Below, in pieces: positions 2,358-52,586 of a DNA stretch of 64,000 bases (its first letter is position 1; each line of letters opens with the position of its first letter). The DNA is taken from positions 62,001 to 126,000 of the forward strand of contig NZ_JAKEDS010000005.1 in assembly GCF_021462415.1 (NCBI RefSeq). Direction: 5' to 3'. A model generated the notes under the pieces. That model was given only the letters and a program-made list of their open reading frames with translations. It did no database searches and was not told the origin of the DNA. This DNA comes from Rhodohalobacter sp. 614A (GTDB taxonomy: Bacteria; Bacteroidota; Rhodothermia; Balneolales; Balneolaceae). A program made the position numbers and the translations under genes.

Positions 2358-3548
2358 TTACGATTCCAAAGCAAGCCCTGCCATCAGAGCACAGCCGGTT
2401 TTTAAACCTTGTTCGTCAATGTTATATCGCGGATGGTGCCAGCTCCATTGTGAATCAGCCTCTTCGCTACCGGTTCCCAAAAAGAAAAAAGTTCCGGGAA
2501 ATTCCTGTTGATAAAAAGCAAAGTCTTCGCCGGCCATTACCGGTTTTTTGAGATTGATGACGTTCTCTTCTCCTAAAATTTTCCGGGCCGCCTGAACTAC
2601 ATTTTGGGTACATTTTTCATCGTTGATCACGGCAGGATATCCCTCCGTAAAATCAAATTTATAGGTGGCTCCGGCCGCTTCTGTTGCGCCTTTAATCACA
2701 TCTTCCATTCGTTTTTTCATGAACCGTACGGTTTCGAGTGAAAAAGCGCGGACGGTTCCCATCATATGGGCGTTTTCAGGAATCACGTTAAACGCCGATC
2801 CGGCCTCAATTTTTCCAACGGTAATCACGGCCGGTTCCGTCGGATCAATAGAACGGCTCACAATGGTTTGAAACTGGGTGATAATTTGCGAAGCCAGCAC
2901 AATCGGATCCACAGTGGTATGAGGAGCCGCAGCATGTCCGCCTTTTCCGAGAATTTCAACTTCGAACTCCACCGTGCAAGCCATTAACGGACCTGATTTC
3001 ACAGCTACCTGGCCTGGTGCAAAATATGGATTGGAGTGAAGTCCGTAAACCTGCTGAACGCCAAGATCCTGCAATGCGCCTGTTTGAATCAGCAGATTCC
3101 CACCGCCCGGTAATTTTTCCTCACCGGGTTGAAAGATGAGAACAATCGTGCCGTCAATCTGGTCTTTCAGGTCGGTTAATATTTTTGCCGTGCCCAAAAG
3201 GTTGGCGGTATGGCCGTCGTGTCCGCAGCAGTGAGCCGCCCCGGCACGCTCAGAAAGAAAGTTCGCTTTTGCCTCGCCTTCTTCTTCCATTGGGAGAGCA
3301 TCAATATCTGAACGGAGGCCAATCACACGGTCGGAGTCTTTTCCTTTAATAATTCCCAAACAGCCGGTTTCCATGGGCCGCCGGGTTTCGATTTTCATCT
3401 TCTTCAGTTCATGGAGGATGTAATCGGTAGTATCAAACTCCTGGAAACTTACTTCGGGATTCTTATGCAGATGCCGCCGGATCTGCACCATGTATTCAAA
3501 ATATTCGTCTGCTTTTTTTTGTATCGTCTTCTGTAAATCGGTAGTCAT
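2358..3548 (-). CDS. M20-family amidohydrolase (N-acyl amino acid / hippurate hydrolase type)
   Basis: A 396-residue cytosolic metallopeptidase-fold amidohydrolase of the HipO/AbgB/IAA-amino-acid hydrolase group. Metal ligands are in CCGHDGHTA (residues 107-115), the acidic pair in PGEEKLPGGG (E143-E144), the dimerisation-domain histidine in GKGGHAAAPH, and the last ligand region in MAGEDFAFY near the C-terminus. These enzymes cleave amide bonds of N-acyl amino acids or N-acetyl-diaminopimelate-like compounds. No signal peptide. It is the first gene of the minus-strand run leading into wbuC, the dehydrogenase and apbE. The exact substrate is unknown. Confidence 0.88.
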   Translation of the reverse strand: MTTDLQKTIQKKADEYFEYMVQIRRHLHKNPEVSFQEFDTTDYILHELKKMKIETRRPMETGCLGIIKGKDSDRVIGLRSDIDALPMEEEGEAKANFLSERAGAAHCCGHDGHTANLLGTAKILTDLKDQIDGTIVLIFQPGEEKLPGGGNLLIQTGALQDLGVQQVYGLHSNPYFAPGQVAVKSGPLMACTVEFEVEILGKGGHAAAPHTTVDPIVLASQIITQFQTIVSRSIDPTEPAVITVGKIEAGSAFNVIPENAHMMGTVRAFSLETVRFMKKRMEDVIKGATEAAGATYKFDFTEGYPAVINDEKCTQNVVQAARKILGEENVINLKKPVMAGEDFAFYQQEFPGTFFFLGTGSEEADSQWSWHHPRYNIDEQGLKTGCALMAGLALES

Positions 3549-3751
3549 AGATATAATTTACCTTCAATTTCTAATGCCTGTAAAATGGTGGGAAAATTAA
3601 TGATCTGCAACGACTATTGAATTTTCCAGAGAAAAAATGAATGATTCCAATTATCTTGTTTTCAAGCTTTGAAACACAAATATATAAAGCATTCAGCAAC
3701 CAGCCGTTAGAAAAACTGATAGCTGAATGTTGACAGCCGATAGCCAATAAT

Positions 3752-5187: not shown

Positions 5188-5223
5188 TTGTCGAGTGAGA
5201 ATTATCATATTGATACTACACAC

Positions 5224-6411
5224 ATGCAGGAATTTGATGGTTTAGCGAAATCACTTCAGCCGCATTATTCTCAGTTTAATGTAGCCAACCGGTTGCTGTT
5301 TACCGGTCACTCGCACCAGGCCTGGCCGGATGCGGCGTTTGAAGGGATGCAGGAATATATGCGGGTTGTAGCGGAACAAGTTGGCAATAAATGGAATTTC
5401 GGTTTCGAAAAAACGGAGATCATGCGTGACTACCTGCGTAATTATTATGATGATCCCCACGGAAGGTACTGCCGTGAGCAGAATACTCACGTGCTGTTGG
5501 TTTCCTGGCTTTCCTCGCTGGACTTAAAGAACAAACCAAAAATCATCACCACAACCGGCGAGTTTCATTCCATGTATCGTCAGCTTCGCCGGCTGGAAGA
5601 GGAAGGATTGGAAATTGTGTATCTGCCTCATGAAAATGATGAAAAATTGCTGGAAACCGTCCGCCAAAACCTGGATGAGCGAACCGCTGCCGTGATGCTC
5701 TCTCGTGTTTATTTTAGAACATCAGAAATCAATACCAGGATTTCCGAAATTTCTGACGCAGCAAAACAAGCGGAGGTGCCCATTCTGATTGATGATTATC
5801 ACGGCACGAACGTTGTTCCGCTCTCACTTCAGGAAAAAAATATGGAGCATGTGTATCTGCTTGTCGGCGGATATAAATATATGCAGTGGGGCGAAGGAAA
5901 TTGCTTTTTGCGCTTTCCGGAGAATTGTGAATTTAGGCCCGTCATTACCGGATGGTTTTCTGCGTTTAAGCAGTTGGATCATACAAGAGATAATCAGCCC
6001 GTTTCGTTTGATGATGGTGACCAGAAGTTTGCCACCGCAACTTACGATCCGATTTCCCAATTTCGTTCGGCCGCTGTCACGCAGTTTTTCCAAAAACAGG
6101 GACTCACGCCTGAGGTTCTTAGAAATCAGTATTCATCGCAACTAAAATATCTCCGGGAATTGTTCGATGAGCAAAATTTTGAGGGATCAGAAATTGAACA
6201 TGCAAATACAAGACCGGTGGAAGAATCCGGAGGATTTTTGGCATTGCGATCAGAGAATGCAAGAAAACTGCAAGCGATGTTATTAGAGAAAAATATTTTC
6301 ACTGATGCACGGGATGATATCTTGCGAATTGGTCCGGCTCCGTATACAACGTCGGAGCAGTGTGAGAAGGTGATAGATGCACTTTTTGAGTGTATAAAAC
6401 AGAAAAACTGA
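5224..6411 (+). CDS. Kynureninase-like PLP-dependent class V aminotransferase-fold enzyme
   Basis: A fold-type I PLP enzyme resembling kynureninase. The presumed Schiff-base lysine lies in GGYKYMQWGEGN, the cofactor-binding acid in LIDDYHGTNVVPL, and an early LFTGHSHQAWPDAA block matches the family's substrate-entry loop. Kynureninase cleaves kynurenine or 3-hydroxykynurenine to (hydroxy)anthranilate and alanine, but no other tryptophan-catabolism gene is nearby, so the substrate is uncertain. The frame extends up to a TTG at 5188; I prefer ATG 5224 (395 residues), because the family's conserved region begins after it. The stop codon lies inside the first copy of the repeat described at 6402-6501. 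Confidence 0.75.
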   Translation: MQEFDGLAKSLQPHYSQFNVANRLLFTGHSHQAWPDAAFEGMQEYMRVVAEQVGNKWNFGFEKTEIMRDYLRNYYDDPHGRYCREQNTHVLLVSWLSSLDLKNKPKIITTTGEFHSMYRQLRRLEEEGLEIVYLPHENDEKLLETVRQNLDERTAAVMLSRVYFRTSEINTRISEISDAAKQAEVPILIDDYHGTNVVPLSLQEKNMEHVYLLVGGYKYMQWGEGNCFLRFPENCEFRPVITGWFSAFKQLDHTRDNQPVSFDDGDQKFATATYDPISQFRSAAVTQFFQKQGLTPEVLRNQYSSQLKYLRELFDEQNFEGSEIEHANTRPVEESGGFLALRSENARKLQAMLLEKNIFTDARDDILRIGPAPYTTSEQCEKVIDALFECIKQKN

Positions 6412-6501
6412 CTAACCGATAACTGTTAAAGTTATGCGGAACTGAATGTTTGCCGTGATAAAAACGCTTTATCATTTTTCAGTTTCACGGTTGCCCTGTT
6501 T
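6402..6501. repeat. Copy A of a recA-upstream MITE-like repeat
   Basis: About 100 bases that recur with roughly 85-90% identity at 6642-6742. The shared core includes GCGGAACTGAATGTTTGCC and a stem-loop TGATAAA-AACGC-TTTATCA followed by T residues (6457-6480). The left end overlaps the last codons and stop of the kynureninase-like gene. The right end holds CACGGTTGCCCTGTTT, a degraded version of the terminal repeat of copy B. No protein is encoded. Confidence 0.8.
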
Positions 6502-6913
6502 CTCTGTTCAAAACTATTTCTGTAAGGGTTTTAATTTTCTTGGTTCCTATAAATGTAGGATTAAAAAGGAATGCAGTGAATTAATTGCGATCTTTGTGAA
6601 AAGTATTCAAATGGCGAAGAGAAGTGGCAAAACAGATCAACGGAAAAACTTACTAACCGATTAACTGTTAAAGTTACGCGGAACTGAATGTTTGCCATGA
6701 TAAAAACACTTTATCATTTTTCGGTTTCACGGTTGATCTGTTTCACGGTTTTTCGGGTGGTCTGTTCTTCTGTTTGAATCTTTTTTTTTGTAAGGAATCA
6801 CGAAAATTTGGTTCATACATATAATGCACATATATTTCAATTATCTTGTTATTGAATAATATCCGATAGATTTTGTGCAATTGATAAAAGTGGAAAACAG
6901 GGATGACATGAAG
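6412..6913. other. Long gene-free stretch upstream of recA
   Basis: More than 500 bases without a credible gene. It is filled by the two repeat copies (6402-6501 and 6630-6743) and an AT-rich spacer at 6510-6629 and 6760-6910. A 72-codon frame at 6446-6664 begins in one repeat and ends in the other and looks accidental. Confidence 0.7.
6630..6743. repeat. Copy B of the MITE-like repeat, with 12-bp terminal inverted repeats
   Basis: The second copy is bounded by AAACAGATCAAC (6630-6641) and its exact reverse complement GTTGATCTGTTT (6732-6743). Inside lie the same TGATAAA...TTTATCA stem-loop and GGAACTGAATGTTTGCC core as copy A. The size (114 bp), terminal inverted repeats and lack of coding capacity are those of a miniature non-autonomous element or a large structured intergenic repeat. 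No target-site duplication is obvious. Confidence 0.7.
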
Positions 6914-6973: not shown

Positions 6974-8035
6974 ATGGCATCATCCAAAGACGACAGAAAA
7001 AAGGCAATTGATATTGCCATCGGGCAAATCGAGAAACAGCATGGAAAGGGAACCATCATGCGTTTGGGAGATCACACAGAAAACGATGTCCCCACTATTT
7101 CTACCGGTTCCATCATGGTGGATTATGCCCTGGGAGTCAAAGGAATTCCAAGAGGGAGAATCACAGAAATTTATGGCCCTGAAGCAAGTGGTAAAACCAC
7201 CCTTGCCTTGCAGGTGATTGCACAAGCGCAGAAAGCCGGCGGATATGCCGCTTTTGTGGATGCCGAGCACGCTTTTGATCCCAAGTACGCCCGAAATCTT
7301 GGAATCAATACCGATGAACTTTTGGTTTCACAACCCGACAGCGGAGAACAGGCTCTTGAGATTACCGAAACATTGATTCGTTCCGGCGCGCTTGATGTGA
7401 TTGTTGTTGACTCTGTGGCCGCCCTGGTCCCCCGCGCAGAACTCGAAGGCGAAATGGGCGATTCCCACATGGGGCTCCAGGCCCGGTTAATGTCACAGGC
7501 ATTGAGAAAAATCACCGGTGTTGTGAGCAAAACACGTACGGCATGTGTTTTCATTAACCAGGTTCGTGAAAAAATTGGTGTCATGTTTGGAAACCCGGAA
7601 ACGACAACCGGTGGACGCGCACTGAAGTTCTATTCCTCTGTTCGAATTGATATCCGAAGAATCGGCTCCATCAAAAAAGGAGATGAAGTGATGGGGAACC
7701 GAACCAAAGTAAAAATTGCCAAGAACAAAGTGGCTCCTCCATTCAAAGTTGTAGAGTTCAATATTCTCTACGGACAAGGTATTTCGCGAATCTCGGAAGT
7801 ATTGGATCTTGCCGTTGAGTACGACATCATTGAAAAACGCGGAAGCTGGTATAGATACGATGGAGAACCTATTGGCCAGGGAACCGATGCGGCGATGCAA
7901 TTCCTTGAAGAAGACGAGGAACTTTGCAACAAGATTGAAAAAACGGTCCGTGAAAAACTGATGCCATCGGAACAAAAAGAAGAAGCGAAGGACGAAGAGA
8001 AGAAAGAGAAAGAACCGGCCGAGCAGGATGAATAA
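6974..8035 (+). CDS. recA: Recombinase RecA
   Basis: The 353-residue DNA strand-exchange protein, which forms ATP-dependent filaments on single-stranded DNA for recombinational repair and stimulates SOS repressor cleavage. The Walker A motif GPEASGKT lies at residues 68-75; the Walker B region [12 protein letters not shown], the L1/L2 loops ([17 protein letters not shown] and [21 protein letters not shown]) and a strongly charged C-terminal tail ([18 protein letters not shown]) are all present. Length is typical. The stop overlaps the recX start by 8 bases, which suggests translational coupling of the enzyme and its regulator. Confidence 0.98.
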
Positions 8036-52500: not shown

Positions 52501-52586
52501 ACTTCTCAATTATCCGTTGAACCCTTCCCCATTTTTCAGATTCTTTAATCAGGTAACTGTTAAGGTATGAAATAAATTGCGCACAG

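Follow-up and report, generated by a model that had tools for sequence, protein, structure and literature searches.

In a 64,000-nucleotide stretch of the Rhodohalobacter sp. 614A genome (assembly GCF_021462415.1, contig NZ_JAKEDS010000005.1, positions 62,001 to 126,000; hereafter the window), two similar hairpin units, copies A and B, lie upstream of recA. We propose that A and B are probably the end units of a decayed small element whose sole gene encodes a four-helix-bundle (4HB) protein of the S23/IVP/Avd fold, and that this protein, as a putative pentameric ring, binds the element's own arms, the runs of short words that flank the core of each unit. Judged by sequence, A and B are the terminal units of one decayed 4HB element with its gene mostly deleted, and not independent insertions, because a gene remnant and a relic promoter motif lie between them and because the gene is still in place in the related genome G015. 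A frame across 6510-6640 ends in ...KECSELIAIFVKSIQMAKRSGKTDQ, the C terminus of a small protein, which reads ...EECSELIAIFVKSIQTAERNGRK... in intact relatives, and the remnant peptide ECSELIAIFVKSIQ is identical in the intact relatives L011 and L021. In G015, the 4HB gene at this recA site is nearly whole, is frame-shifted by a small insertion and lies between two diverged units.

An earlier description of the window made from its letters (the sequence-only reading) had reported two copies of about 100 bp in front of recA, resembling miniature inverted-repeat transposable elements (MITEs), and this pair is real. The copies (Table 1) are both palindromic and stand in direct orientation 5' of recA; they are 91% identical across 89 nt (6420-6508 / 6662-6750), and a 23-nt block in front is also 91% identical. 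When folded as RNA, copy A reached -31.5 kcal/mol (z -4.9) and copy B reached -31.8 kcal/mol (z -4.1), and none of 200 shuffles of either copy folded as well. The 12-bp inverted repeat reported for copy B proved exact and lies within a 20-nt pair that is 85% complementary (6630-6649 / 6724-6743), and copy A does cover the stop of the upstream gene, whose last codons and stop come from the copy. The limits of A (111 nt) and B (120 nt) were set from the word structure described below, and in a whole-unit alignment A falls short of B by exactly B's outermost 8-nt word plus one more base. No third copy was found in the host genome by blastn (371-nt query, E up to 10), a search that a strongly diverged copy could escape; the 24 other matches of this query were at most 44 nt long, and the best of them (E 2.3e-4) matched the relic-promoter stretch, not a hairpin unit. 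A scan of the window against Rfam gave 0 matches at the gathering threshold, and searches of phage and plasmid DNA gave no match.

The same upstream gene stands next to recA in 11 of the 19 genomes examined. Among these 11, the unit pair is present at the recA site in this genome (G000) and in G015, and in eight others neither the pair nor an insertion resembling a repetitive extragenic palindromic (REP) transposase gene was seen. An alternative is that A and B are a local duplication for recA control, acting as an RNA hairpin, an insulator or a protein site, and are not mobile. Their place directly 5' of the recA promoter motif would fit this account, and the sequence-only reading had itself named local duplication as the outcome if the sequence occurred nowhere else in the genome and relatives carried the same doublet at the same place; half of this holds, as no other host copy was detected and G015 keeps a doublet at that place, although a diverged one. 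The eight recA sites with neither kind of insertion, the same architecture around 4HB genes at many unrelated sites and the solo units elsewhere make a local duplication very improbable in our view. In G005, a REP-transposase-like gene (L099, G005:C9, open reading frame (ORF) 2788-3549) lies between CTTCAAGCG-type hairpins directly 5' of the recA promoter motif, in the spot where this genome and G015 have the 4HB element. The gene matched NCBIfam REP_Tyr_transpos with E 2e-11 but scored 43.9 bits, where the curated cut-off is 80. G000, G005 and G015 group together in a recA tree (support 0.96).

The alignment score between A and B is 85, compared to 35.5 between A and the first G015 copy and 15 between B and the second. 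Provided that the element was already at the recA site before the two genomes diverged, A and B would have become alike afterwards, for instance by mutual recombination, and their likeness points to such homogenisation as far as sequence can tell. Identity of the long-terminal-repeat kind, left by a recent insertion, was considered and dropped, since A and B are closer to each other than either is to the G015 copies although the element is shared. Inspection by eye showed short palindrome-like inserts of about 20-30 nt within the G015 gene and within units of other genomes (L010 at about 1755-1800, L015 at about 228-250, L021 at about 1930-1960); these inserts may be another mobile hairpin family.

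Intact forms of the element were collected from two sources. A profile of five such 4HB proteins found 33 places in 17 of the 28 genus genomes (E<=1e-15), of which 29 were examined (three had no locus, and L097 was omitted as the second piece of one gene). The named loci came from GTDB genomes, mostly Bacteroidota, with 80 kept of 181 relatives; L129-L132 (genus loci among the named ones), L177 and L086 were omitted from several counts as duplicates. The layout shared by the relatives is unit, promoter motif, 4HB gene, unit, and the 27 units measured are 84-126 nt long. Flanks of 200 nt or more were available at 26 genus loci, and a direct repeat was present on both sides at 20 of these, compared to 7 of 71 mispaired flanks. 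At the named loci, inverted repeats were found at 44 of 78 (controls 20 of 230) and direct repeats at 22 of 78 (controls 11 of 230). A fold z of -2 or lower was reached by 32 of 44 genus units, which are 22 pairs picked for having a repeat and include the window pair, versus 4 of 50 control pieces. We dropped the idea that this organisation is a property of all PF05635 genes, as most other subfamilies have no direct repeats or arms. In this genome, a different 4HB gene (L030, G000:C1:1786350-1786664) has inverted AAAGTGAAAAGTGAGAAGTC-like simple repeats on both sides, in which the scan finds four words. The 4HB element adjoins a groEL gene in both L069 (G009:C165) and L085 (G003:C10), in opposite orientation; the groEL call rests on a Cpn60 match in L085 and a neighbour protein common to the two loci, and the palindromic ends could permit inversion of the gene.

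The arms of these units are periodic. By autocorrelation, a significant 7- or 8-nt period (or one of 14-16 nt) was detected in the genus units (19 of 22 upstream, 18 of 22 downstream) and at named loci chosen for having a repeat (28 of 30 arms). As negative controls, the same period was seen in none of 19 repeats flanking Y1 transposase genes and in 4 of 75 control pieces, with 2 and 3, respectively, at other lags. The rule is that five 7- or 8-nt words, each beginning with AA, are followed by AAGT pointing inward, toward the gene or core. It was first spotted by eye; the words were then tallied, without any selection, over 450 nt to either side of the loci, k being the number of words before AAGT. 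Named loci with five-word arms include L150 (Flaviaesturariibacter aridisoli) and L175 (Mongoliitalea lutea). At the named loci, k of 3, 4, 5, 6 and 7 occurred 11, 11, 48, 11 and 2 times (486 sites), and at the genus loci 3, 1, 13, 2 and 1 times (169 sites), whereas runs with k of at least 4 were found at 1 of 241 and 11 of 782 far-flank sites, at 0 of 182 sites near Y1 genes and at 6 of 1729 sites in shuffles. The hold-out, 45 loci of the same set that had not been used to form the rule, gave 7, 6, 19, 6 and 1 (295 sites), compared to nine runs of at least four, one of them a five, at 523 sites in its far flanks. In the hold-out, word lengths of 5-6, 8-9, 9-10 and 10-11 showed no peak and 7-nt words alone gave the same 19; runs with k of at least 4 preceded 10.8% of AAGT sites and no AAGC or TGAA site. 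Across 37 non-redundant arms with five words of 7 nt each, the most frequent bases are roughly AATATCG, AATATCG and AA(T/C)A(A/T)(T/G)G for words 1-3, followed by AAT(A/G)TCG, AATGTTG and the anchor AAGT.

At other genus loci, the words begin with ATC and the anchor differs. Exactly six starts, corresponding to five words and the anchor, were counted in 14 runs, five starts in 5 runs and four in 6, and none of the runs in the genus loci is longer than six. The words might instead be slippage products, like microsatellites, in an AT-rich spacer, and some arms do reach 6-10 words; we consider this extremely improbable given that the peak at five appears in two unrelated word families and is absent from far flanks and shuffles. 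In the window itself, only 4 of 486 AAGT sites are preceded by runs of at least four words, and 3 of these 4 lie within A and B; the right arm of copy A reaches five words once AAGC, which differs from AAGT, is accepted as its anchor. The fourth run, at 52504 on the minus strand, is isolated, has five unlike words before AAGT and is probably due to chance. The arm rule is a new point, in that among the papers listed by searches of open-licence PMC literature, none described arms of this kind or 4HB elements between genes; the parts consulted of PMC12596196 (Bacteroides regulons) and PMC5524665 (Flavobacterium) likewise hold nothing on them.

Flank words were also compared with the protein at 97 loci, omitting L082, L090-L092 and L097 as truncated or partial genes and loci with short flanks. 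Flank 7-mer content and protein identity are correlated (r 0.163; 0 of 1000 permutations), also after same-site pairs were removed (r 0.148; 0 of 1000 permutations). For pairs at different sites, the mean similarity was 0.125 at 70-85% protein identity (30 pairs) compared to 0.067 at 50-60%, and the signal was weak below 60% identity (63 of 1000 permutations). On this correlation, the unit and the gene seem to move or evolve together.

This bears on the main rival, in which the units are REP- or MITE-like sequences moved in trans by a Y1 transposase of the REP-associated tyrosine transposase (RAYT) type, with the 4HB gene as a mere passenger. Y1 genes in six genus genomes have direct repeats at 19 of the 28 loci tested (out of 45 matches) and the same promoter motif at 11 of 28, and the G005 gene described above lies between hairpins at recA. 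In addition, Bacteroidetes Y1 genes of subclass 2.6 are described, in the part of PMC6006769 consulted, as flanked by atypical structures that are copied elsewhere, which counts for this rival. However, neither the 7/8-nt period nor the word runs occur beside the Y1 genes examined, and the words track the 4HB protein clade, so we consider a passenger gene unlikely.

The 4HB assignment rests on profiles and on a structure model. An intact relative matched Pfam PF05635 (23S_rRNA_IVP) with 39.6 bits (cut-off 33.8), the L129 protein matched NCBIfam TIGR02436 (four helix bundle protein) with 63.8 bits (cut-off 24), and the five-protein profile matched PDB 2rld with E 6.9e-16. The L129 model (34 sequences) has four helices at a mean predicted local distance difference test score (pLDDT) of 94, and its matches are 2rld and 2gsc, with chains A-E of each among them, then Avd (4dwl) and a diversity-generating retroelement (DGR) complex (8ube); E<=0.001 was reached by 2rld chains only. 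Avd is a pentamer, and the 2gsc protein is reportedly a homopentamer, to go by the title of Lin et al. 2006. The introduction of PMC4990558 describes the 2gsc protein as a homopentamer as well. From these five-chain homologues we infer that the 4HB protein may itself form a pentameric ring. S23/IVP-family 4HB proteins are present in 27 of the 28 genus genomes. Relatives of the protein were found in 1 phage record and 19 plasmid records, each under 60% identity; in viral contigs, the protein profile gave 67 pattern-matching stretches, 1 of them a relative. Three plasmid 4HB loci gave no added evidence on arms. On a Nostoc plasmid (L298), the 4HB gene stands between cas2 and cas1, and 23S_rRNA_IVP genes in cas loci are reported in the part of PMC3936711 consulted.

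The resemblance of the model to Avd and to a chain of the DGR reverse transcriptase (RT) complex leads to another rival, a retroelement in which an RT acting in trans and partnered by the Avd-like 4HB protein reverse-transcribes the hairpin RNA. The likeness of PF05635 to Avd is noted in the part of PMC10053308 consulted, which counts for it, and this genome does hold two RVT_1 matches. Yet RVT_1 was found in only 6 of the 28 genus genomes (E<=1e-10) and in neither G003 nor G021, both rich in dispersed matches, and the differences between A and B are not adenine-specific; we therefore hold a retroelement to be decidedly unlikely.

Because the homologues are five-chained, the arms peak at five words and the words follow protein families, we favor a 4HB ring that would grip its own arm, with about one word per subunit. 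The target would be a hairpin of single-stranded DNA or a transcript, and the inward-facing arms on both sides would mark the two ends of the element. Binding could mark a unit for copying or protection and so spread complete elements as well as gene-less, MITE-like solo units. Expression of the 4HB gene may accompany that of recA through a shared promoter of the extracytoplasmic function (ECF) type, and cutting and joining would most likely fall to host repair or replication or to a Y1 transposase supplied in trans. The gene has largely been deleted in this genome, and A and B have been kept alike. In TRAP-type ring regulators, a ring protein reads one short repeated word per subunit; the logic proposed here is similar, but fold, target and function differ.

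MITEs are short palindromic gene-less copies between genes that are related to the ends of a longer element. In the host genome, blastn found no copy beyond the recA pair; related units are scattered in G003, G019 and G021. With the unit of a G003 element as query, 33 matching places were found in G003 and 18 in G019 (E<=0.01); these matches are pieces, often of one arm only, and include the query's own element. Among 24 loci inspected (of 30 given), 21 had no 4HB gene within 1.5 kb and 20 lay outside any open frame of at least 130 codons. A single composite core is matched at 77-93% by nine G019 loci, each on a different contig, and another unit has 15 matches on 12 contigs of G021, counting its own place. 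This dispersal, together with presence and absence at the recA site, supports mobility at the sequence level. The term MITE-like thus suits the gene-less units of the relatives, whereas the recA pair itself is the ends of a deleted 4HB element. No parent transposase with such ends was found (the search covered the Y1 family and no other), and such elements carry the 4HB gene; since there is also no target-site duplication, the strict definition of a MITE does not apply. We also dropped a large target-site duplication as the origin of the paired units, as unit words follow the protein clade across sites and empty recA sites show no unit.

Several results weigh against a mobile element with a counted arm. 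The units could move, as had been suggested, and the recA site is empty in eight genomes, but no target-site duplication was found: flanks match over 1.78 nt on average for 27 units versus 1.77 nt in random pairs. There is no filled and empty pair of close strains, and in the G021/G001 comparison G001 lacks even the flank of the G021 unit. The strict arm of five AA words and AAGT is present at 40 of 73 named loci (41 without a position limit) and 9 of 25 genus loci; adding the ATC form raises the genus count to 14 of 25, and 33 named and 11 genus loci have neither form. The 14 ATC runs stem from five loci, three of which share one site, and an ATC run of six was found once in far flanks and a run of 14 once in named near flanks. 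The AAGT rule does not hold at any of nine G021 solo loci or in the G015 recA-site arms, and the 25 solo loci of G003 and G019 gave k=5 18 times and k=6-8 12 times (63 AAGT sites with k of at least 3). In the hold-out, runs with k of at least 4 also preceded AAGG (5.6%), AATT (4.5%), AACT (3.9%) and AAGA (1.3%). Other PF05635 subfamilies share the fold and carry an arm of at least four words at 3 of 32 loci. Finally, the counts are not independent, as 61 locus pairs share a neighbour protein.

The element resembles several known systems in part. The intervening sequences (IVSs) of 23S rRNA genes, as presented in the introduction of PMC4990558, are also small elements with complementary ends and a PF05635 4HB ORF. 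Intact relatives have an S23/IVP-family ORF, of which the window keeps the 3' end only; unlike an IVS, the window pair lies between protein genes and not within a 23S rRNA gene, and the elements here are intergenic, with arms of words and AAGT, dispersed solo units and a promoter motif of their own. REP/RAYT systems and REPtrons, according to the parts consulted of PMC3733652 and PMC6006769, share a palindrome-flanked small gene, related palindromes elsewhere and a palindrome family that follows the protein family. In contrast to these, the present elements have no Y1 gene inside, and where those systems have palindromes of 20-40 bp they have units of about 84-126 nt whose arms are periodic; neither GTAG nor CGTC tags were found on either strand of copies A and B, the two copies scanned. 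DGRs share the Avd-type fold and a near-identical repeat pair (PMC10053308, in the part consulted), but no RT lies between the units here and the repeat differences lack adenine specificity.

Beyond the recA site, we tentatively suggest a widespread class of elements, mainly in Bacteroidota, in which a pentameric 4HB protein may recognise its own ends by counting five 7/8-nt words, one per subunit, with the words co-evolving. If true, this would provide a function for the S23/IVP family, whose proteins "have no known function" according to the introduction of PMC4990558. The arms would be a candidate ligand for one 4HB subfamily with a countable rule of five words, one per subunit, and AT-rich palindrome families would be explained as the ends of such elements and linked to a promoter motif common with recA.

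This promoter-like motif is shared by recA and many 4HB genes. TGTAAGG-N13..15-GGTTCATA has 16 sites in this genome and 303 in all 28 genus genomes, and none in a reversed control. All 19 genomes examined have a TGTAAG-type match, in some cases a variant, upstream of recA. Of 28 4HB genes of this subfamily, 14 are preceded by the motif in exact form, or 19 if a relaxed form is accepted. We read the motif from its sequence as an ECF-type promoter, and the genes behind it resemble an ECF regulon made up of mobile genes and genes for DNA handling. Other genes downstream of the motif in this genome include two PD-(D/E)XK genes, two Y1 transposases, a DUF559 gene and a phage-integrase-like gene, and the motif also precedes a comEC gene (Competence domain, 192.5 bits). 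In L211, it lies between an ECF-sigma-like ORF, whose sigma match is below curated cut-offs, and a TPR-repeat gene, next to radC.

Table 1. Features at the recA end-unit pair, in window coordinates
Feature	Position	Strand	Basis
Upstream gene, class-V aminotransferase/cysteine-desulfurase-like, below curated cut-offs	5188..6411	+	ORF list, sequence, NCBIfam
Copy A, hairpin end unit, shorter than B by one outer word	6398..6508	+	alignment, folding
Copy A left arm, four words AACAGAAA, AACTGACT, AACCGAT, AACTGTTA; anchor AAGT 6429-6432	6398..6428	+	word scan
Copy A right arm, AACAGAGA, AACAGGGC, AACCGTGA, AACTGAAA, AATGATA; anchor AAGC 6466-6469	6470..6508	-	sequence
Relic promoter of deleted gene, TGTAAGG-N14-GGTTCCTA, recA type	6521..6549	+	sequence, intact forms elsewhere
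3' remnant of 4HB (23S_rRNA_IVP/S23-like) gene, KECSELIAIFVKSIQMAKRSGKTDQ..., running into copy B	6566..6664	+	translation
Copy B, complete hairpin end unit of 120 nt with a 33-nt core	6631..6750	+	folding, word scan
Copy B left arm, five 8-nt words AACAGATC, AACGGAAA, AACTTACT, AACCGATT, AACTGTTA; anchor AAGT 6671-6674	6631..6670	+	word scan
Copy B right arm, AACCGTGA, AACAGATC, AACCGTGA, AACCGAAA, AATGATA; anchor AAGT 6708-6711	6712..6750	-	word scan
recA promoter motif, TGTAAGG-N14-GGTTCATA	6789..6817	+	motif scan
recA	6974..8035	+	ORF list; NCBIfam TIGR02012, 551.5 bits, cut-off 325.3

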